Assembly: GCA_903879915.1 (NCBI GenBank)
Contig: CAIRNJ010000026.1
Span: 85,433 to 118,765, forward strand
Length of the DNA stretch: 33,333 nucleotides
Direction of reading: 5' to 3'
From: an uncultured Elusimicrobia bacterium
GTDB lineage: Bacteria > Elusimicrobiota > Elusimicrobia > Elusimicrobiales > UBA9959
Positions within the stretch are counted from its first letter, which is position 1. Each line of letters opens with the position of its first letter. The notes beneath the pieces are model-generated. The model saw nothing but the letters and a program-made list of their open reading frames with translations. It was not told the origin of the DNA and ran no database searches. A program made the position numbers and the translations under genes. Shown here one piece after another: positions 8,135 to 32,016 of the stretch.

Positions 8135-8179
8135 GGTAAGAACTGCGGCGCGGATCTTCTCCGCCTCCGGGCCTCTGCC

Positions 8180-9046: not shown

Positions 9047-9054
9047 AAATAAAA

Positions 9055-9121
9055 GGGGCGGGAGTCGGGGGGCGGGGTCAGGAACACATCCGTCTTTCCC
9101 TGACTCCCGACCATCGACTCC
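9055..9121. repeat. G-quadruplex motif within an intergenic hairpin
   Basis: The plus strand has four G-runs at 9055-9077: G4, C, G3, AGTC, G6, C, G4. This fits a canonical quadruplex with loops of 1, 4 and 1. The same stretch forms nested inverted repeats: GGAGTCG (9061-9067) with CGACTCC (9115-9121), GTCGGG (9064-9069) with CCCGAC (9106-9111), and GGTCAGG (9076-9082) with CCCTGAC (9098-9104, including a G-T or offset pair). It sits between kamA and kamB, and the G-rich strand is the template strand for this operon. Confidence 0.7.
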
Positions 9122-9133
9122 TGGTTCTGCCGC

Positions 9134-10402: not shown

Positions 10403-10419
10403 AGGAGGTCTCCTTAAGA

Positions 10420-11487: not shown

Positions 11488-11512
11488 ATCGCTTCTCCAG
11501 TGTCAGCCGCTC

Positions 11513-12580: not shown

Positions 12581-12590
12581 GTTGGTCTCC

Positions 12591-13406: not shown

Positions 13407-13416
13407 AAAAAGCTCC

Positions 13417-14076
13417 TTAGAACCTTCCCAGTTTTCCCGCAATATGCAGCGGGGCTTCGGTGGCCTTTATTACTTCTTCCACCGTGGTGTCTTCGGCTAT
13501 CTCTTCCAGCACCAGGCCTTTCTTCGTAACGCGGATGAAAGCCATGTCCGTCACGATGAGGTCTACTTCCCCCTTGGCCGTGAGCGGCAGCGAGCATTTC
13601 TTGAGTATCTTCGGCGCGCCGTTCTTGCTGACGTGCTCCATCGCCACTATAACGTTCTTCGCGCCGGCCACCAGGTCCATGGCGCCGCCCATGCCCGGCA
13701 CCATCTTGCCGGGTATCATGTAATTGGCCAGGTTGCCTTCCATGTCCACCTCGAGGCCGCCCAGCACCGTGTAATCCACGTGGCCGCCGCGTATGATGGC
13801 GAAGGACATGGCGGAATCGAAGAACGCGCCGCCGGGCACGATGGTGACCGCCTGGCCGCCGGCGTTCACGATGCTCTGGTTCTCCCGGCCCTTCTGGGCG
13901 GCGGGGCCCAGGCCGGTAAAGCCGTTCTCCGACTGCAGCAGTATGGTGCGGCCTTCCGGGATATAGTTGGCCACCATGGTGGGCATGCCTATGCCGAGGT
14001 TGACCAGCGCGCCGTCGGGGAATTCCTGCGCGATGCGCTTTACCATCCTGACTCTTTTAAGTTCCTTGGGGTCCAT
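13417..14076 (-). CDS. atoA: Acetoacetate/butyrate CoA-transferase subunit B
   Basis: A 219-residue beta subunit of a family I CoA-transferase. The catalytic glutamate is E50 in the SENG motif (LLQSENGFTGLGP), which forms the glutamyl-CoA intermediate. LVNLGIGMPTMV and GGAMDLVAGAKNV are further family blocks. In lysine fermentation the enzyme moves CoA from butyryl-CoA to the acetoacetate made by Kce, releasing butyrate and acetoacetyl-CoA. Acetate or another acid could also serve. The gene follows the alpha-subunit gene by 22 bases. A ribosome binding site (AAGGAG) precedes the ATG. Succinyl-CoA:3-ketoacid transferase is the close alternative by sequence. The context favours the butyrate-acetoacetate enzyme. 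Confidence 0.93.
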   Translation of the reverse strand: MDPKELKRVRMVKRIAQEFPDGALVNLGIGMPTMVANYIPEGRTILLQSENGFTGLGPAAQKGRENQSIVNAGGQAVTIVPGGAFFDSAMSFAIIRGGHVDYTVLGGLEVDMEGNLANYMIPGKMVPGMGGAMDLVAGAKNVIVAMEHVSKNGAPKILKKCSLPLTAKGEVDLIVTDMAFIRVTKKGLVLEEIAEDTTVEEVIKATEAPLHIAGKLGRF

Positions 14077-14098
14077 ATAAATTCTCCTTGTAGGGGGC

Positions 14099-14779
14099 TC
14101 AGGCTTTAAGCTGCACGTTCGAGGCCGGCAGGGTGGACCGGACCAGCGCGGAGACGAAGATGCCGGGGATGGTCACCTTGTCGGGGTCCAGCTCGCCGGG
14201 CTCCACTATCTTTTCGGCTTCCAGTATCACGTGGTCGGCCGCCATGGCCATCACCACGGCCATGTTCTTGGTGGCGCCGGGCAGGAAGGCGTTGCCGTAC
14301 TTGTCGGCGATCTCGGCCTTTATGAAAGCGAAGTCCGCGCCCAGCGGCAGCTCCAGCAGGTAATCCTTGCCCTGCAGGCTGAGCTTCTGTTTTCCCTCTT
14401 CCACCGCCGTGCCGATGCCGGTCGGGGTCAGCACGCCTCCGAGCCCCGCGCCTTTGGCGCGTATCCGCTCGGCGAAGGTCCCCTGCGGTACCAGCGTGAC
14501 CTTGAGTTCCCCCGAGTTCATTTTCTGCCCGGAGAACGGGTTGGTGCCTATATGGGAGGCGGTCAGCGTGGCGGCGCGGTTCTGGCAGATGAGCCTGCCC
14601 ACTCCCACGTCGGGGTAGGCCGTGTCGCTGGTTATAAGGTTGAGGTTCTTTGCCCCCTTGTTTACCAGCGCGTCGATGAGGGTGAACGCGTTGCCGCAGC
14701 CCATGAAGCCCGCCACCATCAGCGTGGCGCCGTCCCCGATGCCTTCGACCGCCTTGTCCGTAGTAAGAATCGGTTTCAT
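14099..14779 (-). CDS. atoD: Acetoacetate/butyrate CoA-transferase subunit A
   Basis: A 226-residue alpha subunit of the same CoA-transferase, first gene of the long lysine operon. Family features include DGATLMVAGFMGCGNAFTLIDALV (CoA-binding glycine-rich region), NLNLITSDTA and the FSGQKMNSGELKVTLVPQGTFAERIRA block. The chosen ATG at 14779 has AAGGAG seven bases upstream and lies roughly 40 bases from a predicted transcription start. It works as a heteromer with the product of the next gene. The short leader leaves no room for a cobalamin or lysine riboswitch, although the operon encodes a B12-dependent enzyme of lysine metabolism. Confidence 0.93.
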   Translation of the reverse strand: MKPILTTDKAVEGIGDGATLMVAGFMGCGNAFTLIDALVNKGAKNLNLITSDTAYPDVGVGRLICQNRAATLTASHIGTNPFSGQKMNSGELKVTLVPQGTFAERIRAKGAGLGGVLTPTGIGTAVEEGKQKLSLQGKDYLLELPLGADFAFIKAEIADKYGNAFLPGATKNMAVVMAMAADHVILEAEKIVEPGELDPDKVTIPGIFVSALVRSTLPASNVQLKA

Positions 14780-14823
14780 GCCTTACTCCTTTGTCCGCTG
14801 TCCCGCCGCCGCAAATTTTCCAT

Positions 14824-14832
14824 ATTATAACA
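14824..14832 (-). promoter_or_regulatory. Extended -10 promoter of the lysine-fermentation operon
   Basis: On the minus strand TGTTATAAT is a perfect extended -10 element. It is embedded in an AT-rich tract (14815-14851) that is striking in this GC-rich window and could act as an UP-like element. No clear -35 box is at normal spacing; TTGCCC lies 22 bases upstream, too far. The AT tract is shared with the divergent mrp-type gene, whose own promoter probably also lies here. Confidence 0.65.
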
Positions 14833-14885
14833 AAATTTTTATATTATAAAAGGGCAAGACCGGCGCGGACCGGTCGAAGGACGTC

Positions 14886-15707
14886 ATGCACAAAGTACAC
14901 ATAGACCACCGGGCGTCGCTCGTCAGAGAGAATATGGCCCGGATAAAGCACAAGATCCTCGTCATGAGCAATAAAGGCGGGGTCGGCAAAAGCACCGTCG
15001 CCGTCAACTTCGCGGCCCTGCTCGCCGCCCGCGGGCTGAAGACCGGCCTGCTCGACATAGACCTGCACGGCCCCTCGGTCGCCCGCATGACCGGCCGGGA
15101 AAGCCGCTGCCATGACACCGACGGCCGGACCATAGACCCGATAGAAGTTATGCCCGGGCTGAAGATGATCTCCATGGGCTCGCTGCTCAGGGACGGCGAT
15201 ACCCCCGTGATCTGGCGCGGCCCGCTTAAGCTTACGGTGCTCAGGCAGTTCCTGTCCGACGTGAACTGGGGCGGCCTGGACGCGCTGGTGATAGATTCCC
15301 CCCCCGGCACCGGCGACGAACCGCTCACTATCTGCCAGCTGATCCCTGAAATGACCGGCGCCGTCGTAGTTACCACCGGGCAGTCCGTGGCGCTGCTGGA
15401 CGCCCGCAAGGCCGCGGCTTTCCTGAAGCGGCTGGGGATCCCCGTGCTGGGAGTGCTGGAGAACATGACCGTCTTCAGCTGTCCCCATTGCGCCAAAGAA
15501 ATAAGCCTGTTCAAGGCCGGCGGCGGACGGACGGCCGCGGCCGAACTGGGCATACCGTTTTTGGGCAGCGTGCCCTTCGACCCCGGCCTGGTGGACTGCG
15601 GCGACGCCGGCAGGATCTTCGCGCTGGAACACCCCGCCGCCCCGGCGGCAGCGGCGCTCCGGGAAGGCCTGGCCAGGGCCGTCGGCGCTATTTGGCGGAA
15701 TATATGA
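14886..15707 (+). CDS. mrp: Mrp/NBP35-family Fe-S cluster carrier ATPase
   Basis: A 273-residue MinD-superfamily ATPase that holds and delivers [4Fe-4S] clusters to apo-proteins. The deviant Walker A loop is SNKGGVGKST (residues 28-37). The family blocks DIDLHGPSVARM, GGLDALVIDSPPGTGDEPLTICQ and the cluster-binding CPHC motif (in VFSCPHCAKE) are all present. AAGGA precedes the ATG at good distance. It is divergent from the lysine operon and shares its AT-rich control region. With radical-SAM and ferredoxin-type enzymes next door, a housekeeping role in Fe-S assembly fits, although no direct link is shown. It converges with the acetyltransferase gene, 25 bases away, without a visible terminator. 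Confidence 0.92.
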   Translation: MHKVHIDHRASLVRENMARIKHKILVMSNKGGVGKSTVAVNFAALLAARGLKTGLLDIDLHGPSVARMTGRESRCHDTDGRTIDPIEVMPGLKMISMGSLLRDGDTPVIWRGPLKLTVLRQFLSDVNWGGLDALVIDSPPGTGDEPLTICQLIPEMTGAVVVTTGQSVALLDARKAAAFLKRLGIPVLGVLENMTVFSCPHCAKEISLFKAGGGRTAAAELGIPFLGSVPFDPGLVDCGDAGRIFALEHPAAPAAAALREGLARAVGAIWRNI

Positions 15708-15732
15708 GCAAGAGTGCTTCAGGCGGCGCGGT

Positions 15733-16212
15733 TCACGGCAGCAGGGGGCCTTGGGTCTTGCGCAGCAGCAGCTCGTCGGAGCCTTTGACCAGGAGATCCT
15801 TAAGCAGTCCGGCCTGCCGGTAGCCCAGGCGGCGGTAGAAGCGCCTGGCGCCCTTGTTGAAAGAAGAGACGCAAAGGAACACGTTCGGCGAGTCCCGGAA
15901 GATGCGCTCCTCCGCGCGCCGCATCAGCAGCCCGCCCAGCCCGCCCCCCCTGGCGCCCGGCGCCACGCACAGCGCCTGTATATAGCCCCTGAACGTTCCG
16001 TACATCGTGATAAGAACGAGCCCTTCCAGCGCGCTGCCGCGCAGGGCAACGTGCAGTTCCCGGTACGGGGTTTTTATGGTTTCGAGGCAGCCGGCGCGGC
16101 CTATGCCCAGCCGCAGCCAGGGGTCGGAGGCAGCCATCAGCCGGGCCGCGGCCAGCCTCAGGCGCCGGCTGCGGGTCCGGACGATCCTGAGCCTGCTGGG
16201 TCGGGGCTGCAT
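15733..16212 (-). CDS. GNAT-family N-acetyltransferase
   Basis: A 159-residue GNAT acetyltransferase. The acetyl-CoA-binding motif A is visible as IQALCVAPGARGGGLGGLLMRRAEERI, with a fully matching RGGGLG pyrophosphate loop. Motif B follows as NKGARRFYRRLGY. The N-terminus is basic (many Arg) and may be non-conserved. The acceptor substrate is unknown. Rim-like protein or small-molecule acetylation are both possible. The gene follows the TIGR03545-type gene by 4 bases and is probably the last gene of that operon. No obvious ribosome binding site is seen at the chosen ATG, so a start further inside the frame is possible. Confidence 0.82.
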   Translation of the reverse strand: MQPRPSRLRIVRTRSRRLRLAAARLMAASDPWLRLGIGRAGCLETIKTPYRELHVALRGSALEGLVLITMYGTFRGYIQALCVAPGARGGGLGGLLMRRAEERIFRDSPNVFLCVSSFNKGARRFYRRLGYRQAGLLKDLLVKGSDELLLRKTQGPLLP

Positions 16213-16216
16213 GGCG

Positions 16217-17977
16217 TTAGAATTTGAACTTCGGGAGTTTCAGCTTGCCCGGGGTAAGGCCTTTCAGCAGGCTGTCCCCGCCGCCGGTGACCTTGCCCTC
16301 GGCGTCCTTAAGCTTGCCGTCCAGCTCCGCTTTTTTAGCGGCGGCCAGGCCGTCGAGCTTTTCCCGGTAGGGCTTCAGGGCGCCGTCTATTTTCTTCTGC
16401 GCTTCGGCCTGCGCTTTTTTTATTTCGTCGCCCATGGCGCCGCTGAAGGCCTTGGACAGCGCGTCGGCGAGGTCGGTCTTGATCGAAAGTTTGGGGGCTG
16501 TGAGCGTGCCGGCGATCCCGCTCTCTATCTGCGCGGAGGAAAGCCTGGAGAAAGCGGATTCCACCGCCGACCTGAGCGGGGCGGCCTTTATTTTTTCCGT
16601 GCCGGGTTTGAAAGAAGCGCCGGTGAAGCGGGCCTCGGCCCGGCCGTCGAGCGCTGAGCCTTCCGTCTTTAATTTTACGTCGAGGTTGCCGGTGGCGCCG
16701 GTTATGTCCACCATGAAAGAGGACGGGGAACCCAGCCTTAACTGCTCTATCTTTATGCCCGCATAGGCCAGCGCGGTATCCGTTCGCAGCTCTTCACCGG
16801 CGGCGTCCACAGAGCAGCTGAAGTCCAGCCTGCGGCCGCCTTTGGCGCCTTTTATCAGGGCGGTGGTGGGCCGGCCGTAGACCCGCGGCTGGGTGGTCAG
16901 GCCTTCTATCACCCCGCTGTAGGCCAGCGGGTCGTCAGCGCCCAGTTCTCCGCTCAGCGCGAGCCTGCGCACCAGCACCGAAGGATAGCTTTTTTCTTTG
17001 GGGAAATGCACCACGCGGCCGCGGGGCGCCTCGTTCTTCAGCACGCCTTTGGAGTTCGCCGGCATGTATTTTTTAGCCGTGGCCATCCAGCCCATGGCCT
17101 GCTCGGTCTTTTCCGCTATCAGCGGGCCGGCCAGCATGCGGGCCAGGGACTGCGTATCCAGCGCGGGCAGCTTCATTTTGCCCATCACGGCCGCTATATC
17201 TTTCTTGCGGGCCTCGTCCAGGCCCTTGAACGCGTCCTTGAGCCTCGCCGCGGCGGTTTCCACTTCCTGCTTGTCGGCCTTGAACTGTTTGGAAAGCTTG
17301 TTCACTTCCTTGCCTATCTCCGCGTAATCCTTGGCCTGTTTCGCGAAATTGCTCTCGCCTTTGGCCTTCTCGTAGCGGACCTTGAGGGCGGCCAGGCCGT
17401 CCTCGTATTTCTTCAGGTCCAGGCGGGCCGCGATGTCCTTGTAATCTTTTTCGTAGGTCTGTTCCAGCTGTTTGGCCAGCTTCACCGATTCCAGATCGTC
17501 GGCGCTGATCTTGTAGTCGCTGACCAGGTCCGTCTTTATGTCGGCGGCCCGTTCCAGCGCGAAATCCTTGGATTCGTCCTTGAGCTGCTGCACCAGCGCC
17601 GACGGCGGCTCCTCCTTTACGAAAGGCAGTTTGCCCGAGGTCTTGCGGGGCGTGCCGAGGCGCAGGCCGGTGAGAGAGGCGTTCTCCACCAGCAGCTTCT
17701 TCTCCAGCAGCGGCGCGCCGGCGGCGGAGAAGGAAAGCTCCGAGAATTCCGCCAGGTTGCGGAATTCGTCCTTGGCGTCGGCCACCGCGAAGCCGGTGAC
17801 CTTCAGCGACGGGTGCAGGAAAGTGGTCCTGAGCCCGGCGATCTCCACTTTGGCCTTCGCGGCCTTTTCAAGGCCTTTTATCGCCCCCCACTTGAGCAGC
17901 GGGTCGAAGGCGAAAAAGAAGAACGCCCAGACGAGGATAAGCAGGGTAAGACGGGGAATGATGTATGACCAGCGCAT
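16217..17977 (-). CDS. TIGR03545-type membrane-anchored protein (AsmA-like)
   Basis: A 586-residue protein with one N-terminal transmembrane segment (about residues 7-27, LLILVWAFFFFAFDPLL) and a large extracytoplasmic part. Residues about 30-120 form an AsmA/DUF748-like repeat (VTGFAVAD...NASLTGLRLGTP). A charged Lys/Glu/Asp/Ala-rich segment of about 150-290 is probably coiled coil. A beta-rich C-terminal half follows, then a Gly/Lys-rich tail. This layout matches the TIGR03545 family of unknown function, typically encoded beside a TIGR03546 protein, as here. The stop of the partner and this ATG are one base apart, with AAGGAA upstream, so translation is coupled. A role in envelope assembly or lipid transfer is speculative. 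Confidence 0.75.
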   Translation of the reverse strand: MRWSYIIPRLTLLILVWAFFFFAFDPLLKWGAIKGLEKAAKAKVEIAGLRTTFLHPSLKVTGFAVADAKDEFRNLAEFSELSFSAAGAPLLEKKLLVENASLTGLRLGTPRKTSGKLPFVKEEPPSALVQQLKDESKDFALERAADIKTDLVSDYKISADDLESVKLAKQLEQTYEKDYKDIAARLDLKKYEDGLAALKVRYEKAKGESNFAKQAKDYAEIGKEVNKLSKQFKADKQEVETAAARLKDAFKGLDEARKKDIAAVMGKMKLPALDTQSLARMLAGPLIAEKTEQAMGWMATAKKYMPANSKGVLKNEAPRGRVVHFPKEKSYPSVLVRRLALSGELGADDPLAYSGVIEGLTTQPRVYGRPTTALIKGAKGGRRLDFSCSVDAAGEELRTDTALAYAGIKIEQLRLGSPSSFMVDITGATGNLDVKLKTEGSALDGRAEARFTGASFKPGTEKIKAAPLRSAVESAFSRLSSAQIESGIAGTLTAPKLSIKTDLADALSKAFSGAMGDEIKKAQAEAQKKIDGALKPYREKLDGLAAAKKAELDGKLKDAEGKVTGGGDSLLKGLTPGKLKLPKFKF

Positions 17978-19194: not shown

Positions 19195-20625
19195 ATGACT
19201 TATGACGTAGCCATAGTCGGGGCGGGCATTACCGGCGCGGCCATAGCCCGGGAGCTTTCACGCTACAGGCTGAAGGTCCTGCTTCTTGAAAAAGAAGCTG
19301 AGCCCGCTTTCGGCGTGTCGAAATCCAACAGCGGCATCATCCACGCCGGCACGCAGAATCCCCCCACCTCGGTGAAAGCCTGGCTGTGCGTGGAAGGCAA
19401 CCGCCTGCTGCGCGGGGGGTTGGCCGCCGACCTTGGCCTGCATTTCGTGCAGTGCGGGCAGCTGATCGTGGTTTTCGACCTGAAGGACCTGCCGGAGCTG
19501 GAGAAGATAAAAAAAGAGGGCGCTGACCTCGGCATCAAAGGCCTGGAGCTGGTAGACCGCGCCTGGCTGGCCGGGCATGAGCCCAACCTGGGCCCGGAAG
19601 TGAAGGCCGCCCTGTACGTGCCCACCGCCGGCATCATAAGCCCTTACCGTTTCGTTTACGCGCTGGTGGAGAACGCGGTGAAGAACGGCGTCGAGCTGAA
19701 AACTTCCCGCCGGGTCACGGCCATACGCCGCCCCGCCGGCGGCGGGTTCGAGCTGGAGGCCGGAGGAGAAGTTTACCGGTCGCGCTTCCTGGTCAACGCC
19801 GCCGGGCTGTTCGCCGACGAAGTCTCGGCCCTGGCCGGCGCGCCGACCTTTAAAATAACCCCGCGCAAAGGCGAGGAATACCTGCTGGACAAGAAGCGCG
19901 AGCATATAGCGAACCATATAATTTTCCCCCTGCCCTCGAAGAACTCGAAAGGCATCCTGATAATAAAGACCTCCGACGGCAACCCGATGATAGGCCCCAC
20001 CGCGCACGACAGCGGGGATAAAACCGACCTCTCCACCACCGACGACGGCCTGGCGGAGGTGCTGGCCGGCGCCCGGCGCATGATGCCTTCTATCTCCAAA
20101 GGCGACATAATCGCCTACTTCGCCGGCCTGCGCCCCGTTTCCGGCAAGGATTTCATCATCCGCCACGAGGACGCGGCGCCCGGCCTGGTCAACGCGGCCG
20201 GCATCCAGTCGCCCGGCCTTACTTCCGCGCCGGCCATCGCCGTGATGGTGGCCGACCTGCTCCGCAAGCACGGGCTCGCGCTGGAGGCGAAGGCGGATTT
20301 CCACCGCACGCGCCCCCGCACCGTCCACCTTTTCCAGGTACCGCCGGAAGAGACCCGCCGCCTGGTGAAAAAAGATCCCGCCTACGGTGATATAGTCTGC
20401 CGCTGCGAGCTGGTTTCCGCCCAGGAGATACGCGACGCCGTGCGTCGCGGCGCCGCCACGCTGGACGGGATAAAATTCCGCACGCGCGCGCAGGCCGGCC
20501 GCTGCCACGGCGGCTTCTGCACCACGCGCATAATCAAGATCATGCAGGAAGAGCTCGGTTTTCCCGTTACCGCCATAACCAAGCGCGGCCCCGGTTCGGA
20601 ACTTATAAAGGATGAACGCAAATGA
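19195..20625 (+). CDS. GlpA-like FAD dehydrogenase with BFD-type [2Fe-2S] domain
   Basis: A 476-residue FAD-dependent dehydrogenase of the DAO family. The N-terminal Rossmann motif is VGAGITGAAIARELS. NSGIIHAGTQNPPTSVKAWLC and the substrate-domain ending GLRPVSGKDFIIRH/GIQSPGLTSAPAIA are typical of GlpA-like glycerol-3-phosphate dehydrogenases and the related LhgO 2-hydroxyglutarate oxidases. The C-terminal domain (from about residue 399) has C402, C404, C437 and C442, a BFD-type [2Fe-2S] site. This supports the anaerobic GlpA/Thermotoga-type form. The next genes encode the usual partners (an FAD/NAD(P) oxidoreductase and a DUF1667 protein). It probably oxidises glycerol-3-phosphate or another hydroxyacid, passing electrons to the partners. 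No glpK or glpF is in the window, so the substrate is open. There is no Shine-Dalgarno site, and TAAAAT lies eight bases before the ATG. Confidence 0.82.
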   Translation: MTYDVAIVGAGITGAAIARELSRYRLKVLLLEKEAEPAFGVSKSNSGIIHAGTQNPPTSVKAWLCVEGNRLLRGGLAADLGLHFVQCGQLIVVFDLKDLPELEKIKKEGADLGIKGLELVDRAWLAGHEPNLGPEVKAALYVPTAGIISPYRFVYALVENAVKNGVELKTSRRVTAIRRPAGGGFELEAGGEVYRSRFLVNAAGLFADEVSALAGAPTFKITPRKGEEYLLDKKREHIANHIIFPLPSKNSKGILIIKTSDGNPMIGPTAHDSGDKTDLSTTDDGLAEVLAGARRMMPSISKGDIIAYFAGLRPVSGKDFIIRHEDAAPGLVNAAGIQSPGLTSAPAIAVMVADLLRKHGLALEAKADFHRTRPRTVHLFQVPPEETRRLVKKDPAYGDIVCRCELVSAQEIRDAVRRGAATLDGIKFRTRAQAGRCHGGFCTTRIIKIMQEELGFPVTAITKRGPGSELIKDERK

Positions 20626-20883: not shown

Positions 20884-21858
20884 ATGCGCGAACGAGACCT
20901 TGTAATAGTGGGCGGCGGCCCCGCCGGGATGGCGGCGGCCCTGGCCGCGCGCGCCGCCGGCGTGCAGGATATCCTGCTGCTGGAGCGGGACCAGCACCTG
21001 GGCGGCATACTCAACCAGTGCATACACCCCGGGTTCGGCCTGCACCATTTCAAGGAGGAGCTGACCGGCCCGGAGTACGCCGACCGCTTCGTCCGCCTTC
21101 TTAAAGAGGAGCAGGGCATAGAGGTGAGTTTGCGCTCCTTCGTTGTAAAGCTCACTCCGGGCAGGGAAATTTCCTATTTCCGCCCCGGAGCCCTGGAAGA
21201 GGTCCGGGCCCGGGCCGTCATACTCGCCACCGGCTGCCGCGAGCGCACCCGGGAAATGATACAGATCCCCGGCTCGCGCCCGGCCGGCATCTATCCCGCC
21301 GGGCTGGCCCAGAAAATGGTCAATATGGAAGGCTGGATCCCCGGGCGGGAGGCCGTGATAGTGGGCTCCGGGGATATAGGCCTTATAATGGCGCGGCGCA
21401 TGGCGCTGGAAGGCGTAAAGGTCAAGGGCGTCGTAGAGATACAGAAGACCAGCCGCGGGCTGGTGCGCAACGTGGTGCAGTGCCTTGAGGACTTCGGTAT
21501 CCCGCTTTATTTCCGGCACCGGATCTCCCGGATACACGGCGCCGACAGGGTGGAGAAGGTGGACGTGGTGCGGGTCGACGATAATTTAAAGGACATCCCC
21601 GGTTCCGGTTTCGAGGTCCCCTGCGACACCGTGCTGGTGTCCGTGGGGCTGATCCCCGAGAACGAACTGCTGGAAATGGCCGGCGGCGAGATCGACCGCG
21701 CGGCGAACACGCCGGTCGCTGCCGGCGTCAACCTTACTTCCGTGCCGGGCGTGTTCGCCTGCGGCAACGCCTGTAAAGTATACGACCTGGTGGACTGGGT
21801 TACGCGCGACAGCGCCCTGGCCGGCAGAATGGCCGCGGAATACCTGGAGAAGAAATGA
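20884..21858 (+). CDS. FAD/NAD(P)-binding oxidoreductase partner of the GlpA-like enzyme
   Basis: A 324-residue two-dinucleotide-domain flavoprotein of the pyridine nucleotide-disulphide oxidoreductase superfamily. The FAD motif VGGGPAGMAAALAA is at the N-terminus and the NAD(P) motif VGSGDIGLIMARRMALEG in the middle. The C-terminal FAD-contact motif is seen as TSVPGVFACGNACKVYDLVDWVT. It lacks the redox-active CxxC of thioredoxin reductases. GGILNQCIHPGFGLHHFKEELTGPEYA marks the subfamily found beside GlpA-like dehydrogenases and DUF1667 proteins, for example in Thermotoga and clostridia. It probably passes electrons between the FAD/[2Fe-2S] dehydrogenase and NAD(P) or another carrier. Its stop overlaps the DUF1667 start (ATGA). 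Confidence 0.87.
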   Translation: MRERDLVIVGGGPAGMAAALAARAAGVQDILLLERDQHLGGILNQCIHPGFGLHHFKEELTGPEYADRFVRLLKEEQGIEVSLRSFVVKLTPGREISYFRPGALEEVRARAVILATGCRERTREMIQIPGSRPAGIYPAGLAQKMVNMEGWIPGREAVIVGSGDIGLIMARRMALEGVKVKGVVEIQKTSRGLVRNVVQCLEDFGIPLYFRHRISRIHGADRVEKVDVVRVDDNLKDIPGSGFEVPCDTVLVSVGLIPENELLEMAGGEIDRAANTPVAAGVNLTSVPGVFACGNACKVYDLVDWVTRDSALAGRMAAEYLEKK

Positions 21859-22217
21859 AACGTGTGATGACCTGCATAGAATGCCCGCAGGGCTGCCGCC
21901 TCGAGATAGAGGCCGACGGCCGGCGCGTTCTCAGCGTAGCCGGCCAGAAGTGCAAGCGGGGCGACAAATATGCCCGCCAGGAGATAGAGGCCCCGATGCG
22001 CACGCTGACCACTTCGGTGCTTACCGGCGGGCTGGAGCTTAAAATGCTGCCGGTGCGTACCTCGAAGCCCATCCCCAAGGAAAAACTATTCGAGACCATG
22101 GCCGCGGTAAAGCGCATCGTGGTCTCTTCCCCCGTGAAAGCCGGCGCCGTGGTGGCCACCGATTTCCTCGGGCTGGGCGTGGACCTTGTGGCCTGCCGGT
22201 CCATTGATAAGAAATGA
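21855..22217 (+). CDS. DUF1667 family protein
   Basis: A 120-residue DUF1667 protein. The N-terminus has the family cysteines MTCIECPQGCRLEIE (CxxCPxGC) followed by GQKCKRGDKYA, four cysteines well placed for an Fe-S cluster or metal. The MRTLTTSV and VRTSKPIPKEKLFE blocks are typical. It is translationally coupled to the oxidoreductase gene before it. In other bacteria it forms a conserved trio with a GlpA-like dehydrogenase and this oxidoreductase, and it is likely the electron-transfer third subunit. The exact role has not been shown, to my knowledge. Confidence 0.88.
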   Translation: MKRVMTCIECPQGCRLEIEADGRRVLSVAGQKCKRGDKYARQEIEAPMRTLTTSVLTGGLELKMLPVRTSKPIPKEKLFETMAAVKRIVVSSPVKAGAVVATDFLGLGVDLVACRSIDKK

Positions 22218-24432: not shown

Positions 24433-26397
24433 ATGCTTTTCCTTCTGCTTTCGCTTTCCCTCCTCTGCCTCAGCGCTCTACTGACGGTTTTCTGTAACGC
24501 CCGCCCTGAAAGAGCTAATTTTATCGGCGCCGCCGGCGCCGTGTCCGCTTCCGCGGTCGGCCTGTTCCCCGCCGTAAGAACGCTGCTGCATCCCGCCGCC
24601 GAAACGCTCAGTCTTCCCTGGCCGGTGCCCATGGCTTCCTTCAGCCTTACGCTGGACCCCCTGTCCGCTTTTTTCCTGGTGCCCGTCTTCATCCTTACGG
24701 CGGCGGCCGCCATCTACGGGGCCGGCTATTTCAGGCCCGAAGAAAAAAAAGCGCCGGGGCTGGCCTGGACGGCTTTCAACCTGCTTTCCGCCGCGATGGC
24801 CGTGGTGTTCCTGGCCGCCAACGCCGTACTGTTCCTGCTGGCCTGGGAAGTGATGGGGGTCTCGTCGTTCTTCCTGGTAATTTTTGATCATGAGAAAGCG
24901 CAGGCCCGCAAGGCCGCGTACATTTACCTGGTGGCCGGCGCGGCGGGCGCGCTGGCGCTGATGTTCGCGTTTTCCCTGCTGGGGGTGCAGGCAGGGGCTT
25001 TGGATTTCGCCGCGTTCAAAAGGCCGGAAGGGCCGCTGGCCGCCGCCGCTTTCCTTTCTTTCCTGCTGGGGTTCGGCCTTAAAGCCGGCGTTATCCCGCT
25101 GCATGTCTGGCTGCCGGAAGCCCACCCCGCCGCGCCCAGCCATGTTTCGGCCGTGATGAGCGGCGTCATGATAAAGACCGGGATCTACGGGCTGATACGC
25201 GCGCTGGGCCTGCTCAGCCCCTGGGCGCCCTGGTGGGGCTGGACGCTGATACTCATCGGCCTTGGTTCCTGCCTGCTGGGCGTGGTCTTCGCGCTGGCCC
25301 AGCACGACCTGAAGCGCCTGCTGGCTTATTCGAGCATAGAGAACATCGGCATTATAGTGCTGGCGCTGGGCCTGGGCGTGCTGGGCACGGCCATGGGCCT
25401 GTACCCGCTGGCGGCCCTGGCTTTCGGCGGGGCGCTGCTGCATGTGCTCAACCACGCGCTGTTCAAGGGCCTGCTTTTCATGGGCGCCGGCGCGGTGCTG
25501 CACGGCGCGGGCACGGCCGAGATGGAAGCTTTGGGCGGATTGTCCAAGCGTATGCCCCGCGCGGCCTTCCTTTTCGTGCTCGGCGCGGCTGCCGCCTGCG
25601 CCCTGCCGCCGTTCAACGGCTTCGCCGGCGAATTCCTTATTTACCTGGGCGCTTTCAGCGCGCTCAACGGCCCCGCCAACATAGTGCTGGCCGCGCTGCT
25701 GGCGCTGGCCGTGCTTTCGGCGGCCGGGGCGCTGGCGCTGGCGGTGTTCTCCAAAGCCGCGGGTGCGGTCTTTCTGGGCGAACCGCGCACGCAGGCCGCG
25801 GCCGGGGCCCATGACTGCGGCCCGCTGATGAACGCCGGCATGACGCTGCTGGCCGCCGCCTGCGTGGTTTCCGGCTTCGCCGCCCCTTTCCTTATATTGC
25901 CCGTCTCTACCGCCCTGGGCGCCGCGTTCGGCCTGCGCACCACGCTCGATTTCAGCGGCGCCGCCGCTACGCCCCTTATCTATCTTACCGCCGCGTTCCT
26001 GGCGCTGGCCGCCATAGTGTGGGTGCTGGCCGAAAAGCGCCGGTTCTTCCTGGGCGGCAGACAGCCCGCCGCCGGGCCCACCTGGGACTGCGGCTACGCG
26101 GCGCCGTCGGCGCGCATGCAGTACGGCGCGTCCTCCTTCTCCCAGCCGCTTACGGCTTTCTTCCAGCCGCTGCTCAGGAAAACCCTGAACATCCCCGTGA
26201 TAGCCGGCTATTTCCCGGGCAAGGCCTCGTTCTCCAGCGAAGCCCGCTCCGTGGTCTTTGATCACCTGTACGCCCCCGTCATAGTGCGCCTGCGGGGGCT
26301 GGCTTTCCGCTTCAGCTGGCTGCAGCACGGGCGCCTCCAGTTCTACATACTTTACATCGTGGCGGCCCTGATGGCCTTACTGCTATGGAAATTATAA
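24433..26397 (+). CDS. hyfB: HyfB-like proton-pumping subunit of the Ehr-type complex
   Basis: A 654-residue membrane protein of the NuoL/HyfB (Mrp antiporter-like) family with about 14-16 transmembrane segments. The functional acidic residue in LLAWEVMGVSSFFLV, the lysine in FGLKAGVIPLHVWLPEAH and the HNALFK-type motif (LNHALFKGLLFMGAG) are conserved, so ion pumping is expected. The C-terminus has the HyfB-type extension, with WDCGYAAPSARMQYGASSFSQPL. This extension replaces the long lateral helix of NuoL. It is the first gene of a six-subunit operon and overlaps the next gene by 13 bases. It corresponds to the first antiporter-like subunit of Ehr complexes. Confidence 0.9.
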   Translation: MLFLLLSLSLLCLSALLTVFCNARPERANFIGAAGAVSASAVGLFPAVRTLLHPAAETLSLPWPVPMASFSLTLDPLSAFFLVPVFILTAAAAIYGAGYFRPEEKKAPGLAWTAFNLLSAAMAVVFLAANAVLFLLAWEVMGVSSFFLVIFDHEKAQARKAAYIYLVAGAAGALALMFAFSLLGVQAGALDFAAFKRPEGPLAAAAFLSFLLGFGLKAGVIPLHVWLPEAHPAAPSHVSAVMSGVMIKTGIYGLIRALGLLSPWAPWWGWTLILIGLGSCLLGVVFALAQHDLKRLLAYSSIENIGIIVLALGLGVLGTAMGLYPLAALAFGGALLHVLNHALFKGLLFMGAGAVLHGAGTAEMEALGGLSKRMPRAAFLFVLGAAAACALPPFNGFAGEFLIYLGAFSALNGPANIVLAALLALAVLSAAGALALAVFSKAAGAVFLGEPRTQAAAGAHDCGPLMNAGMTLLAAACVVSGFAAPFLILPVSTALGAAFGLRTTLDFSGAAATPLIYLTAAFLALAAIVWVLAEKRRFFLGGRQPAAGPTWDCGYAAPSARMQYGASSFSQPLTAFFQPLLRKTLNIPVIAGYFPGKASFSSEARSVVFDHLYAPVIVRLRGLAFRFSWLQHGRLQFYILYIVAALMALLLWKL

Positions 26398-27302
26398 AAC
26401 CGCTCATCCAATACCTGGCGGTGATAATCCTTTCCCCCCTGCTGCTGGGGCTCATCAACCGCGTGAAAGCCAAGTTCGCCGGCCGCCGCGGCCAGCCGCT
26501 GCTGCAGCTGTATTTCGACCTGTACAAGCTCAGCTATAAAACCCCGGTCTACAGCCGCACCACTACCTGGCTGTTCAGGGCCGGGCCGGTGATAGGCCTG
26601 AGCGCCATCCTTTGCGCGCTGGCCGCGCTGCCTTTCGCCGGCCGGCCGGGCTTCCTGGCTTTCGACGGGGATTTTATATTCCTTATCTACCTGCTCGGCT
26701 TAGGCCGGTTCTTCACGGTGCTGGCCGCGCTGGATACAGGTTCCAGTTTCGAGGGCATGGGCGCCAGCCGCGAGGTGCAGTTCGCGGTTTTCTCCGAGCC
26801 CGCTTTCTTCCTGGCGCTGGCCGCGCTGTCCAAGGCCACCGGCAAGCTGTCCCTTTCGGGCATGTTCCTGGCGCTGGAGCCCGCCTCCTGGCAGGCCGCG
26901 GCGCCGGCGCTGCTGCTGCTCACCGCCGCCCTGTTCATAATCCTGCTGGCCGAGAATTCCCGCGTGCCGGTGGACGACCCCAACACCCACCTCGAGCTTA
27001 CCATGATCCACGAGGTGATGGTGCTGGACCACAGCGGGCCGGACCTGGCCTACATCCTTTACGGCGCGGCGCTCAAGCTCTGGTTCTTCGGGGCGCTGAT
27101 AGCCAGCGCCGTGCTGCCGCGCCATTCCGGCTCCTGGCTCTACGACGGGGCCGCGTTCCTGGGCATGATGGCGGTGATAGCGGCGGCCATAGGCACGGTG
27201 GAATCCGTGATGGCCCGCCTGCGCATGATAAAGGTGCAGTACCTGCTGATGGGCGCGCTGGTCTTCTCGATACTCGCTTTGCTGTTCCAGACGGGACGCT
27301 AA
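26385..27302 (+). CDS. hyfC: HyfC/NuoH-like membrane subunit
   Basis: A 305-residue NuoH/HyfC-type membrane subunit with about eight transmembrane segments, which connects the peripheral arm to the antiporter modules. The family loop LLAENSRVPVDDPNTHLELTMIHEVM is intact, with its conserved Arg, Asp and Glu residues, as is the N-terminal RRGQPLLQLYFDLYKL segment. FEGMGASREVQFAVFSEPA corresponds to the conserved cytoplasmic loop near the quinone-like cavity. The ATG lies inside the end of the hyfB-like gene. The HyfE-like gene follows six bases after the stop. Confidence 0.92.
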   Translation: MEIIKPLIQYLAVIILSPLLLGLINRVKAKFAGRRGQPLLQLYFDLYKLSYKTPVYSRTTTWLFRAGPVIGLSAILCALAALPFAGRPGFLAFDGDFIFLIYLLGLGRFFTVLAALDTGSSFEGMGASREVQFAVFSEPAFFLALAALSKATGKLSLSGMFLALEPASWQAAAPALLLLTAALFIILLAENSRVPVDDPNTHLELTMIHEVMVLDHSGPDLAYILYGAALKLWFFGALIASAVLPRHSGSWLYDGAAFLGMMAVIAAAIGTVESVMARLRMIKVQYLLMGALVFSILALLFQTGR

Positions 27303-27308
27303 GAACTT

Positions 27309-27980
27309 ATGAGCACTTTAGCCGAACTTACCATAGTTTTCATCATCCTGCTGAACCTGGCCCTTGCCGTGTCGGGCTCGATGTCGGTCTGCATCCGCCT
27401 GGCCGCCATCCAGGGCGTGGCGGCGGGGCTGCTGCCGCTGCTGGCCGGCGGCGGCGTGATGCGCGGCCGCGCCATGGCGTTCGCCGCTTTTATAATCCTG
27501 CTCAAGGGCGCGGTGTTCCCCTGGCTGATGTTCCGCGCCCGGGAAAAGACCGGGGCCCGCCGGGACGTGGACCCGCTGATCGGCTACCCGTCGTCGATAA
27601 TGCTCTGCCTGGGCGCTTTCGCCGCGTCCTCGTGGCTGGGCTCGCGCCTGCCGCTGCCCCATTCCGGCGTGGCGTTCATCGTGCCGGCGTCGCTGGCCAC
27701 CATCTTCACCGGCTTCCTGCTCATCACCACGCGCGCCAAGGCCATCACGCAGGTGCTGGGCTACCTGGTCATCGAGAACGGCATCTATATCTTCGGGCTG
27801 GCGCTGTTCGTGGAGCAGCCGCTGATGGTGGAGCTGGCCATCCTGCTGGACGTTTTCGTGGCGGTGTTCGTGATGGGCATAGCTATCTTCCACATCAGCC
27901 GGGAGTTCGACCACATCGATACGGACCAGATGGACGAGCTGACCGACTGGCATCAGTCGGAAGAGGGCGGCAACATATGA
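27309..27980 (+). CDS. hyfE: HyfE-like membrane subunit
   Basis: A 223-residue HyfE-type subunit, related to NuoK in its C-terminal half. It has about six to seven hydrophobic segments. The VLGYLVIENGIYIFGLAL stretch carries the buried glutamate typical of NuoK/HyfE, and the C-terminal VFVMGIAIFHISREFDHIDTDQM is a HyfE hallmark. Its stop overlaps the ATG of the next gene (ATGA), so translation is coupled. It probably helps form the proton path at the junction of the HyfC and antiporter subunits. Confidence 0.9.
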   Translation: MSTLAELTIVFIILLNLALAVSGSMSVCIRLAAIQGVAAGLLPLLAGGGVMRGRAMAFAAFIILLKGAVFPWLMFRAREKTGARRDVDPLIGYPSSIMLCLGAFAASSWLGSRLPLPHSGVAFIVPASLATIFTGFLLITTRAKAITQVLGYLVIENGIYIFGLALFVEQPLMVELAILLDVFVAVFVMGIAIFHISREFDHIDTDQMDELTDWHQSEEGGNI

Positions 27981-29467
27981 TAACGGCGCTGCTTACGCTG
28001 CCGCTGCTCGCCGGCCTGGCGTCCTTCATCATCAAGGGCGACCCCGCGCGCCGCAGGCTGCTGCTGGCCGCAGCGGCCGGGCACCTCGCGCTCACCGCCG
28101 CGCTGTTCGCGGCCAGGCTGAACCCCGCCCTGGGCATCCCCTGGGCCGCCGCCGGCGAGTGGTTCGGTTTCGACGAGCTGGGCCTGCTGTTCCTGGGCGT
28201 CACCTCGGTGCTGTTCCTCGGGGCCTCCGTTTACTCCGTGCGCTACCTGGCGCTGGAAAAGCGCGACCCAGGCGAGGACGCCGACGACGGGTTTATTTTT
28301 AACAACGCGCCCGAAGCCGTGTTCACGGGCTGCCTGCTGCTTTTCCTTTCGGCCATGACGGCGGTGACGGCCAGCCGCCACCTGGGCATACTCTGGGCGG
28401 CGGTGGAGGCCACCACGCTGCTCAGCGCCCCGCTGATCTATTTCCACCGGCACAAGCGTTCGCTGGAGGCCACCTGGAAATACCTGCTTATCTGCTCGGT
28501 GGGCATAGCGCTGGCCCTGATGGGCAACCTGTTCCTGGGCGCGGCCGGGCTGCGCACCGGCTTCGGCCTTAACCTGGACGCGCTGCTGGGCGGCGCGGCT
28601 CAGCTGGACCGTCCGCTGCTCAAAGCCGCGTTCCTGTTCCTGTTCGTCGGCTACGGCACCAAGATGGGCCTGGCCCCGTTCCATACCTGGCTGCCCGACG
28701 CGCACAGCGAAGCCCCCGCGGTGGTGTCCGCCCTGCTCAGCGGCGCGCTGCTCAACTGCGCTTTCCTGGGCATCCTGCGCGCCGTGCAGATCTGTGCCGG
28801 CGCCGGCCTGGCCGATTTCTCCGGCGGCATACTTGTTCTTTTCGGCCTGCTGTCGCTGATCACCGCGGGGCTGTTCATCCTGGGCCAGCGGGATTATAAG
28901 CGCATGCTCGCTTATTCCAGCATCGAGCACATGGGCATCCTGGCGCTGGGCGCGGGCCTGGGCGGCCGCGCGGTGTACGGCGCGCTGCTGGGCGCCGTGG
29001 GCCATTCGCTGGCCAAGGCCGGGCTTTTCTTCACGTCGGGCCTGATACTGGCGGCGTACAGGACCAAGCGCATCTCCGACGTAAAAGGCCTGCTCGGCCG
29101 CGCGCCACGCACGGCGGCGCTGTGGCTGGCCGGCTTTTTCCTTATAACCGGCACGCCCCCCTCCGGCATCTTCCTGGGAAAGTTCCTTATTCTGAAAGAG
29201 GCCGTGGCCTCCGGGAAATACCTGGTAGCCGGCGTGTACCTGCTTTTTCTGGGCATAGTTTTCGCCGGGATGGCGCGTATCTTTATAAACATGGCCTTCG
29301 GCGCCCATGTCCCGGGGCCGGATGAAAAACCGTTCTACGAATCGCGCGGCATGGTAGCGCCCGCCTGCGTCTTCTTCTGCTGCGTGCTGGCGCTGGGGCT
29401 GTACGTGCCCGCCTGGCTCGACACGCTGATCGGCGGCGCGCAGGTCCTTATAAGGAGGGGCCCGTGA
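27977..29467 (+). CDS. hyfF: HyfF-like (NuoN/NuoM-type) proton-pumping subunit
   Basis: A 496-residue antiporter-like subunit with about 14 transmembrane segments. Key residues are the glutamate in ILWAAVEATTLLSAPLIYF and the lysines in GYGTKMGLAPFHTWLPDAHSEAP and GHSLAKAGLFFTSG. The second antiporter-like protein of the operon, it would give the complex two pump modules. The open frame extends far upstream (to 26612), but that region is a shadow of the hyfC- and hyfE-like genes. The ATG at 27977 overlaps the hyfE-like stop and begins a clear membrane segment. The stop overlaps the GTG of the large-subunit gene. Confidence 0.92.
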   Translation: MITALLTLPLLAGLASFIIKGDPARRRLLLAAAAGHLALTAALFAARLNPALGIPWAAAGEWFGFDELGLLFLGVTSVLFLGASVYSVRYLALEKRDPGEDADDGFIFNNAPEAVFTGCLLLFLSAMTAVTASRHLGILWAAVEATTLLSAPLIYFHRHKRSLEATWKYLLICSVGIALALMGNLFLGAAGLRTGFGLNLDALLGGAAQLDRPLLKAAFLFLFVGYGTKMGLAPFHTWLPDAHSEAPAVVSALLSGALLNCAFLGILRAVQICAGAGLADFSGGILVLFGLLSLITAGLFILGQRDYKRMLAYSSIEHMGILALGAGLGGRAVYGALLGAVGHSLAKAGLFFTSGLILAAYRTKRISDVKGLLGRAPRTAALWLAGFFLITGTPPSGIFLGKFLILKEAVASGKYLVAGVYLLFLGIVFAGMARIFINMAFGAHVPGPDEKPFYESRGMVAPACVFFCCVLALGLYVPAWLDTLIGGAQVLIRRGP

Positions 29468-30909
29468 GCATCCCCTTGGTGCCCCTGGAGAATATCCCCT
29501 TCCTGCCCATGGAGGAGTTCACGAGGACAGTTACCGGCAAGCTCCGCTCCGGCGGGCGGGCGGCCGTCTTCTTCGCCATGCCCGAGGCCGGCGCTTTCCG
29601 GCTGGTGATGGCCATAGCTTTCGACCTGGAAGGGCGGCTTGAATTCCTTTCCACGGCCGCGGCCGGCTCGTTCCCCTCCCTCACCCCGGAGCTGCCGCAG
29701 CTGCATCTGTTCGAGCGCGAAATTTACGAACTGACCGGGCTTAAGCCCGAGGGGCATCCGTGGCTGAAGCCGGTGCGGTTCACCGGCGCGGCCGCCCGGC
29801 CCGGCGTGGCGGAGTTCTTCCGGGTGCACGGCAGCGAGGTGCATGAAGTGGCCGTGGGGCCAGTGCACGCCGGCGTGATCGAGCCGGGCCATTTCCGCTT
29901 CCAGTGCTACGGCGAGAAGGTTTTCCAGCTGGAAATAGCGCTAGGCTACCAGCACCGCGGCGTGGAGCGCCGCCTGGCCGCCGGGCCCGACGCGCGCGGC
30001 ATACATTACGCGGAAACGCTGGCCGGCGACACTACGGCTGGCCACGCCTGGGCTTACTGCGAAACCATCGAAACGCTGTGCGGCGCGGCCGTTCCTGCCA
30101 GGGCGCAGGTGCTGCGCGCCATAATGCTGGAGCTGGAGCGGCTGGCCAACCACACCGGCGACCTGGGCGCGCTCTCCGGCGACGTGGCCTACCTGCCTAC
30201 GGCCTCTTTCTGCGGCCGCCTGCGCGGCGATTTCCTGAATATGACCGCGCTGATCTGCGGCAACCGCTTCGGCCGGAACATGTTCAGGCCCGGCGGGGTG
30301 AACTTCGACCTGGACGCCGCGCTGGCTAAGGAGCTTAAGGCGCGCCTGGACGCCGCTTTCAGGGACGCCGAGAACGCCGTGGCGCTGCTGTGGGAGACCA
30401 ATTCGGTGGTGGACCGTTTCGACGCCACCGGGCTGCTGCTGGCCGACGCCGCGCGCGGGCTCGGGCTGGTGGGGCCGGTAGCGCGGGCCTGCGGCATTCC
30501 GCTGGATACCCGCAGGAATTTCCCCTTCGGGCCCTATCATGATTTTACGCTGTCCGCTTCGGGCAGGGGCGACGTGTACGCGCGCGCCTACGTGCGCTGG
30601 GCCGAGATGCAGAAATCGGCGCAGCTAGTTGACGCCTGGCTGGACGCGCTGCCCGGAGGTCCCGTGGCGGCGGAATGCGGGCCGCTCAGGCCCGGCAGCG
30701 CAGCCATGTCGCTCATCGAGGGCTGGCGCGGGCAGATCTGCCACGCGGCGGTCACCGACGACGCCGGGCGCTTCCGTTATTACAAGGTGGTGGACCCCTC
30801 CTTCCGCAACTGGGTGGGGCTGGCCATGGCGCTCAGGAACGGCGAGATCTCGGATTTCCCGCTGTGCAATAAAAGTTTCAACCTGTCGTACTGCGGGCAC
30901 GACCTGTAA
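29464..30909 (+). CDS. Hydrogenase-4-like large subunit lacking Ni ligands (EhrL-type)
   Basis: A 481-residue fusion of a NuoC-like N-terminal domain (EREIYELTGL followed by GHPWLKP near 84-103) with a NuoD/HycE-like large-subunit domain (GYQHRGVE at 161-168). In HycE-type enzymes the Ni-Fe centre is held by CxxC in ERxCGIC...H and CxxC in the C-terminal DPCxxC. Here the aligned positions are A187 and T190 in AETLAGDTTAGH and S446 and N449 in VDPSFRNW. All four cysteines are missing, so a NiFe centre is not expected. The C-terminal DFPLCNKSFNLSYCGHDL fits hydrogenase-related (Ehr) proteins. The catalytic reaction is unknown. The GTG start has a strong AAGGAGGGG site and overlaps the upstream stop. 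Confidence 0.88.
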   Translation: MSIPLVPLENIPFLPMEEFTRTVTGKLRSGGRAAVFFAMPEAGAFRLVMAIAFDLEGRLEFLSTAAAGSFPSLTPELPQLHLFEREIYELTGLKPEGHPWLKPVRFTGAAARPGVAEFFRVHGSEVHEVAVGPVHAGVIEPGHFRFQCYGEKVFQLEIALGYQHRGVERRLAAGPDARGIHYAETLAGDTTAGHAWAYCETIETLCGAAVPARAQVLRAIMLELERLANHTGDLGALSGDVAYLPTASFCGRLRGDFLNMTALICGNRFGRNMFRPGGVNFDLDAALAKELKARLDAAFRDAENAVALLWETNSVVDRFDATGLLLADAARGLGLVGPVARACGIPLDTRRNFPFGPYHDFTLSASGRGDVYARAYVRWAEMQKSAQLVDAWLDALPGGPVAAECGPLRPGSAAMSLIEGWRGQICHAAVTDDAGRFRYYKVVDPSFRNWVGLAMALRNGEISDFPLCNKSFNLSYCGHDL

Positions 30910-30913
30910 ACCT

Positions 30914-31648
30914 ATGTTCAAAGAAATTATAGCGCGGTTCAAACAGGGCTACCGGACCATGGAGTTCCCGGCGCCCGGCCTTGCTCTTCCCCCGCGCGGG
31001 CTGGGCCTGCCCCTGGTTAAGCAGCTCGACGAAAAAGCGGCCGCGGCCTGCCCTTACGCCGCGATTACGCCGGGAGCAGGCGGCGGGCTGGACCTGGGGC
31101 GCTGCGTTTTCTGCGGAGCCTGCGCGCAGGCCTTTCCGGAGGCCGTGGAGTTCACCAGGGAGTACAAGCTTTGCGCCAGCGCCCGGCAGGACCTGGTGGT
31201 GGGTGTTGGGGCCTTCAAGCGGGCCGCGCCCGTGGCGGCGGATATCCGAAGAATTTTAGGCCGTTCTTTTAAGTTGCGCCAGGTGAGCGCGGGCGGCTGC
31301 GGGGCCTGCGAGGCCGACTGTAACGTGTTGGGCACGCTGGCTTGGGACATGGGACGTTTCGGGGTGCAGTTCGTGGCTTCTCCGCGGCACGCCGACGGCA
31401 TACTGATTACCGGTCCTGTTACGAAGAACATGGAACTGGCCCTGCGCAAGACCTACGACGCGGTGCCGGGGCCGAAAGTTGTCATAGCCTGCGGCGCCTG
31501 CGCCATAGCCGGCGGGCCTTATGCCGGGCACGAGGAGTGCGTGGGCATTCCCAGGGATATTCCGGTGGACCTCTATATCCCCGGCTGCCCCCCCCATCCT
31601 TTGACCATCCTCGACGGCCTCCTGCGCCTCATCGGCCGGATCGATTAG
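30914..31648 (+). CDS. NuoB/HycG-like small subunit with fused [4Fe-4S] domain (EhrS-type)
   Basis: A 244-residue fusion. The N-terminal domain (about 1-115) has C46 (in ACPYAAI), C64, C67 and C70 (CVFCGAC), enough for one [4Fe-4S] cluster; the fourth Cys of a standard CxxCxxCxxxC is Phe (AFP). The C-terminal domain is NuoB-like with the N2-type cluster ligands C129 and C132 (GGCGAC), C193 (IACGAC) and C225 (PGCPPHP). Electrons would pass through two clusters to or from the large subunit. No HyfA/HycB-type polyferredoxin gene is in the operon, so a soluble ferredoxin is a likely partner (inference). The upstream part of the open frame is an antisense or shadow region. The ATG at 30914 lies four bases after the large-subunit stop. 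Confidence 0.87.
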   Translation: MFKEIIARFKQGYRTMEFPAPGLALPPRGLGLPLVKQLDEKAAAACPYAAITPGAGGGLDLGRCVFCGACAQAFPEAVEFTREYKLCASARQDLVVGVGAFKRAAPVAADIRRILGRSFKLRQVSAGGCGACEADCNVLGTLAWDMGRFGVQFVASPRHADGILITGPVTKNMELALRKTYDAVPGPKVVIACGACAIAGGPYAGHEECVGIPRDIPVDLYIPGCPPHPLTILDGLLRLIGRID

Positions 31649-31662
31649 AACAGTTTTTGTAT

Positions 31663-32016
31663 ATGGACAAAGCCCGGCAGCCAAACATAGCGATCCCGGA
31701 AGACAGGCATGAGTGGCCGCTGTGGCCTTTCATACTGTTGTTCCAGGCCCCGGCCATAGCCAATTTCTGGGGCGCCCATTTGATGACTCAATACCGCGCC
31801 GAAGGCGCCGGGATCATAGGCATGGTGATGTTCCTGGGCATTCCCCTAACGGTCCTGGCCGGCCTCATAGCCCTATACATTACTTTCAGGCAATGGCGGC
31901 GCTACTTCCGCCGCGTCAGGGAGGAAGGACCGGTAAGCGCCACCCCTTACATAGCGGTCTCCCTGCTGAATTTCCCGTTCTTCTACTGCTGCATATACCT
32001 GGCAACCATGCTCTGA
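31663..32016 (+). CDS. Small membrane protein, last gene of the Ehr-type operon
   Basis: A 117-residue protein that I do not recognise. Hydrophobic segments are at about 19-36 (WPLWPFILLFQAPAIANF), 50-74 (a long strongly hydrophobic helix) and 96-117 (YIAVSLLNFPFFYCCIYLATML), so two or three membrane passes are likely. A basic stretch, RQWRRYFRRVREE, lies between the second and third and should be cytoplasmic. It starts 14 bases after the small-subunit gene without a clear Shine-Dalgarno site, and codon use fits. It may be an accessory subunit of the complex. The part of the frame upstream of 31663 is a shadow. Confidence 0.7.
   Translation: MDKARQPNIAIPEDRHEWPLWPFILLFQAPAIANFWGAHLMTQYRAEGAGIIGMVMFLGIPLTVLAGLIALYITFRQWRRYFRRVREEGPVSATPYIAVSLLNFPFFYCCIYLATML

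Follow-up and report, generated by a model that had tools for sequence, protein, structure and literature searches.

What complex is encoded by an operon whose large subunit resembles that of a group 4 [NiFe] hydrogenase in which the nickel ligands are missing? The locus lies in what we refer to as the window, a 33,333-nucleotide stretch of DNA from an uncultured Elusimicrobia bacterium, which forms the end of contig C26 in a genome of 3.4 Mb and whose closest named relative in our genome scan is RIFOXYA12_FULL_57_11, also of the Elusimicrobia (87% identity). The operon, which spans 24433-31648 on the plus strand, consists of six genes that overlap or directly adjoin one another and are, in turn, HyfB-, HyfC-, HyfE-, HyfF-, HycE/HyfG- and HycG/NuoB-like (Table 1), that is, the set of six syntenic Hyf/complex I-type membrane and peripheral genes expected of an Ehr (energy-converting hydrogenase-related) complex. 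Alignment of EhrB and EhrF with HyfB and HyfF reveals the glutamate and the lysines in the expected helices, in agreement with a preliminary description of this DNA in which the antiporter-like subunits were said to retain their key residues. The small hydrophobic protein encoded directly after EhrS may or may not belong to the complex.

Table 1. Features of the Ehr locus and its upstream neighborhood (positions in the window)
Feature	Position	Strand	Basis
DAO + BFD-[2Fe-2S] protein, type 2 glycerol-3-phosphate oxidase-like, possible partner	19195..20625	+	Domain matches; linkage only
FAD/NAD(P) pyridine-nucleotide-disulphide-type flavoprotein, DAO trio	20884..21858	+	Domain matches
DUF1667 protein, DAO trio	21855..22217	+	Domain match
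EhrB, HyfB-like antiporter subunit, 654 aa	24433..26397	+	NCBIfam hydrogenase 4 subunit B (E 1.7e-174, under curated cut-off); Pfam Proton_antipo_M; key Glu and Lys present vs HyfB
EhrC, HyfC/NuoH-like membrane subunit, 305 aa	26385..27302	+	Pfam NADHdh (1.1e-29); alignment with HyfC/HycD
EhrE, HyfE/NuoK-like membrane subunit, 223 aa	27309..27980	+	NCBIfam hydrogenase 4 membrane subunit (2.3e-15, under cut-off)
EhrF, HyfF-like antiporter subunit, 496 aa	27977..29467	+	NCBIfam hydrogenase 4 subunit F (1.2e-95, under cut-off); key residues present
EhrL, large subunit, NuoC-NuoD fusion type, 481 aa, Ni ligands absent	29464..30909	+	GTG start; HycE alignment, orthologs, fold
Codons 187-190 (A-G-D-T) replacing first CxxC	30022..30033	+	Alignment; G188 and D189 invariant in 81 aligned loci
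Codons 475-478 (S-Y-C-G) replacing second CxxC, C terminus NKSFNLSYxGxDL	30886..30897	+	Alignment
EhrS, N-terminal ferredoxin-like domain fused to NuoB-like N2 domain	30914..31648	+	Pfam Oxidored_q6; cysteine columns
Small hydrophobic protein, 117 aa, directly after EhrS	31663..32016	+	No Pfam match

The ehrL reading frame is intact over exactly the tabulated interval, and the best relative of solved structure is HycE of Escherichia coli (7z0s_E; phmmer E 4.5e-42). The residues at the ligand positions were read against HycE, MbhL, Nqo4 and a Ni-bearing paralog from the same genus. RVCGICGFAH of HycE faces TLAGDTTAGH in EhrL, and SLDPCYSCTDR faces SFNLSYCGHDL, which, together with the orthologs, confirms the earlier reading that none of the four Ni-binding cysteines is present and that A187 and T190 occupy the first CxxC. 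The second motif had been misplaced: S446 and N449, the residues then proposed, sit in a conserved segment (DPSFxNW, opposite AATYANW in HycE) that is cysteine-free in Ni enzymes too, and the ligand positions are instead taken by S475 and G478. C477, which adjoins a lost ligand position, varies between C, A, S and P across the phylum; we rejected the idea that it is a leftover Ni-binding or catalytic ligand, since other Ehr have A, S or P there and two Ehr subtypes differ at this position. EhrL stops where mature HycE ends, and thus displays neither the RxCGxC and DPCxxC ligands nor the cleaved C-terminal tail of group 4 [NiFe] hydrogenases. At the former active site, Ehr has a new polar motif that is strongly conserved.

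That a sequencing or frame error, or decay of the gene, conceals the cysteines is refuted by the orthologs. The preliminary description had named a frame or sequence error among the things that would refute its reading, and we found nothing in its favor; the same replacements are common to about 20 orthologs in the genus and to 81 aligned loci, and the reading frame is full-length. Moreover, dN/dS amounts to 0.07 for the comparison with the nearest relative and to 0.06-0.28 across all gene pairs tried, rough values with dS near saturation that are nevertheless well below 1, and EhrL is therefore under purifying selection.

Structure prediction and phylogeny, both proposed in the preliminary description, place EhrL close to HycE. 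An AlphaFold model of this subunit, built with 34 homologs (pLDDT 80, pTM 0.85), has HycE as its best match in the PDB (Z 40.2 over 464 residues), followed by complex I subunits (Z ~36-37). Confidence is low at residues 112-161 and 457-481, the pocket strands, and pocket geometry was not used; the acceptor site discussed below is consequently drawn from sequence alone. A maximum-likelihood tree built from 56 large subunits recovers Ehr as one clade (support 100/100) beside HycE/HyfG and apart from Mbh, Mbs, complex I and the Ni hydrogenases, although long branches meet at the Ehr-HycE/HyfG join, with a program warning and without an outgroup, and the exact join is uncertain. The Ni enzymes are paraphyletic in this tree, which fits separate losses of Ni in Ehr and in complex I/Mbs. 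Pyrococcus Mbs/Mbx is, like Ehr, derived from group 4, and is an ion-pumping oxidoreductase without a full Ni site; however, MbsL does not group with EhrL and its motifs (RICVPEPD, SLDNCPPDIDR) differ from those of Ehr.

The likeness to complex I raises the question of whether Ehr might be quinone-reactive, namely a minimal complex I-like ferredoxin:quinone oxidoreductase with a redesigned quinone pocket. Complex I itself lost the Ni ligands and gained a quinone site at the same place, the predicted EhrL fold matches its 49-kDa subunits (Z ~36), and the C-terminal end of EhrL equals that of Nqo4/NuoD. Furthermore, D139 of Thermus Nqo4, near the quinone, is retained as D240, which is invariant. 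In contrast, the two key quinone residues of Nqo4, H38 and Y87, face I139 and G188, each found in 81/81 aligned Ehr loci, and Ehr does not group with complex I in the tree. Overall, we consider a quinone-reactive enzyme unlikely.

The absence of Ni motifs, the six-gene operon, the HycE-like fold and the separate clade are each in keeping with Ehr as described in the literature (PMC4378227, PMC6349859, PMC12342949). It is thus well supported that EhrL is a real member of the Ehr family, widespread and little studied, rather than of a new kind of machine. The preliminary description, which had likened the complex to Ehr and predicted that it has no NiFe centre, is supported in this. The tree was built without published Ehr sequences, and the clade is linked to Ehr by its features: like published Ehr, it combines a group 4-like large subunit devoid of RxCGxC and DPCxxC with syntenic NuoH, HyfB, HyfE and antiporter genes. 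With HycE/HyfG of E. coli it shares the NuoC-NuoD fusion, the fold and a B, C, E, F, G-type gene order as in hyf, but in Ehr the Ni ligands and the cleaved tail are missing, the ferredoxin subunit is fused to the small subunit, and HyfA and HyfD are absent. The first of these papers described the six-gene complex without Ni motifs in Sulfobacillus as Ehr and assigned no function (PMC4378227), the second, on Margulisbacteria and Saganbacteria, proposed a formate dehydrogenase partner and redox-driven ion translocation and called for testing (PMC6349859), and the third found Ehr, again without an assigned function, in about half of Nitrospirales genomes and cites expression that does not rise with H2 (PMC12342949). 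None of the three demonstrates a redox reaction or ion pumping by Ehr, in line with the earlier remark that the redox partners of such complexes are not known.

Orthologs of EhrL occur in most genomes of the genus (71-99% identity in a full-length search, a few being more divergent), and the order's other family, with small genomes, has no gene for it. A genome scan retrieved at least 552 relatives in Elusimicrobia, Planctomycetes, Verrucomicrobia, Kiritimatiellae, Acidobacteria, Deltaproteobacteria, Spirochaetes, Omnitrophota and others, in which GD(T/S) and NKSF(N/D)LSYxGxD replace the two Ni motifs; since the scan was baited with C-terminal peptides, C-terminal conservation within it is biased. 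This bias does not affect a search by whole-protein similarity through 120 genomes drawn from the phylum. Here Ehr was found in 18, all lacking both CxxC pairs, with GD or GE at the first motif and a terminal NKSF(N/D)-x-SYxG(H/F/N)D(L/R). Ehr of the phylum is of two types, one whose EhrS carries a ferredoxin domain and one with a short EhrS that does not; loci L187-L194 represent this second subtype, and their operons have no EIIA neighbor. The genomes of Pontiella and Smithella yielded no large subunit of complex I type other than that of Ehr. Five loci (L045, L062, L098, L099 and L110) contain a second, tandem HyfB-like antiporter gene, which makes a seven-gene, three-antiporter Ehr, while a Methylococcaceae genome (G047, locus L133) encodes, besides a standard Ehr, a second, divergent Ehr-like large subunit ending in VCNKSVNGSYSGHDL.

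As for the small subunit, the preliminary description had it that the N2-type cluster residues are kept, and this is borne out by C129, C132, C196 and C225, which are present in 74/74 aligned EhrS. The same is true of C46, C64, C67 and C70, the ligands of the remaining ferredoxin-type [4Fe-4S], and this invariance suggests that electron transfer is under selection. While 60 of the 74 proteins have eight ferredoxin cysteines in addition to the four of N2, the four ligands of one [4Fe-4S] are all gone in every member of the window's type in the genus (~20); genome G011, of the same genus, keeps all eight, and one of the four is left at locus L038. The same cluster is partly or fully lost in Omnitrophota and others too, and this recurrence implies that it is dispensable. 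The electron wire of the window's lineage would thus have one cluster fewer than that of most Ehr.

The sequences directly show the content and order of the genes, the loss of the four Ni ligands, intact N2 ligands with at least one further [4Fe-4S], and intact proton-path residues. That both the FeS and the proton-path residues are intact speaks for ion transport driven by a redox reaction. Ehr is therefore probably a redox-driven H+ or Na+ pump with a non-Ni pocket, descended from a HycE/HyfG-type ancestor (formate hydrogenlyase or hydrogenase 4). Electrons would come from reduced ferredoxin or from a comparable soluble donor of low potential, and would pass via the ferredoxin-like [4Fe-4S] and then N2 to a small acceptor held where the NiFe centre used to be, in a pocket putatively lined by GPxHAGxIxPGHF, G-D/E-T/S and NKSFNLSYxGxD. 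This transfer would drive export of H+ or Na+ through EhrC, EhrB and EhrF, in the manner of Mbh, Mbs and complex I. The low confidence of the model at the pocket weighs against such a pump.

Elsewhere in the genome, contig C112 encodes a true group 4 NiFe large subunit (CGICSHSH ... DPCMSCTDR), and a NuoD-like gene lies on C26 (39392-40201). The hyp maturation genes, which the preliminary description had suggested looking for, are indeed there (hypD and hypE), but are uninformative on Ehr because the NiFe enzyme is present as well. HypD was not found in 5 of 10 named Ehr genomes at a threshold with which it is detected in four controls, E. coli among them; some of the genomes are draft metagenome bins and single absences are weak, but the five together lend support to Ni independence. 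A search of the window's genome did not find a full RnfC (the only RnfC_N match is a Complex1_51K/SLBB protein), which leaves room for another ferredoxin-oxidizing pump, and NQRA_N, sought as a sign of Nqr, was not found either. Genes for the fermentation of lysine lie at 4231-17977 of the window. They encode the beta and alpha subunits of lysine 5,6-aminomutase, accompanied by a MutS-like gene, as well as lysine 2,3-aminomutase, a zinc-type dehydrogenase (10423-11487) and one subunit of a CoA-transferase. In known fermenters this pathway generates reduced ferredoxin, and oxidation of ferredoxin by Ehr is thus plausible in this bacterium.

Among 80 Ehr loci, only two kinds of neighbor recur, an HTH-EIIA gene and the DAO trio, and none is a catalytic partner recurring across phyla. 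This counts against a redox pump, and on the same grounds we rejected formate dehydrogenase as a general partner (PMC6349859). The first neighbor, an HTH_17-PTS_EIIA_2 fusion whose EIIA domain keeps the phospho-histidine motif IAIPHxRN, flanks ehrB, sometimes with an extra antiporter gene in between, in 50 of the 62 loci whose upstream sequence extends for 6.1 kb or more; an example is L049:3235-3948, with similar genes beside Ehr in many phyla. In the phylum draw it accompanies 6/6 two-cluster operons with sufficient flank, that of G011 included, and 0/10 others. In three Elusimicrobia loci (L157, L184 and L185), the fusion gene has an antiporter gene on either side. Regulation of K+ transport is a known role of EIIA-Ntr proteins, and Ehr might accordingly be a PTS-controlled, Mrp-type cation transporter, redox-independent or redox-gated. 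This is improbable, since the FeS ligands of EhrS are invariant and would be needless in a non-redox transporter, and since the regulator is absent from beside the operon in both the window's lineage and the second Ehr subclade. A literature search, from which the 2020 Elusimicrobia genome paper was left out (10.1038/s41396-020-0716-1; it possibly lists the complex), found nothing relevant on an EIIA-Ehr link or on Ehr in Elusimicrobia.

Unlike most Ehr, published ones being compared by description, the window's lineage thus combines an EhrS missing one of two ferredoxin-type clusters, no HTH-EIIA neighbor and a linked DAO trio. The trio is upstream of Ehr, on one contig, in nine genomes of the genus including the window's (G000, G001, G003, G009, G010 and G012-G015, by DAO gene positions), downstream of it in G070 (locus L038), and recurs in four Elusimicrobia loci among the 80. 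This synteny, and the loss of one [4Fe-4S] in the same lineage, could mean that Ehr of the genus takes its electrons from the DAO/flavoprotein/DUF1667 enzyme rather than from ferredoxin. We doubt this strongly: the association concerns one lineage, in which joint occurrence may be a single event, other genes separate trio and operon in the window, and the trio's own flavoprotein is a likely electron acceptor. Moreover, the same cluster is degraded at L053 and L040, both without the trio, and is lost in G121, where no trio is seen in the flanks (~3.8 kb upstream, 8 kb downstream).

More speculatively, and with little confidence, Ehr may be a PTS-controlled class in which the HTH-EIIA sensor ties expression to phosphotransferase state in many phyla, the Elusimicrobia lineage having been rewired by loss of the sensor and of one FeS cluster and now serving a glycerol-3-phosphate-type flavoenzyme. 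The EIIA link and the FeS cluster loss are the parts of the Ehr finding worth following. Ehr is common in many phyla, and the pocket motif, the HTH-EIIA neighbor and the stepwise FeS loss offer concrete handles on acceptor, donor and regulation. Finally, in G011, SdhA/SdhB-like genes of the fumarate reductase type (L157:11752-14426) lie directly upstream of the Ehr operon.
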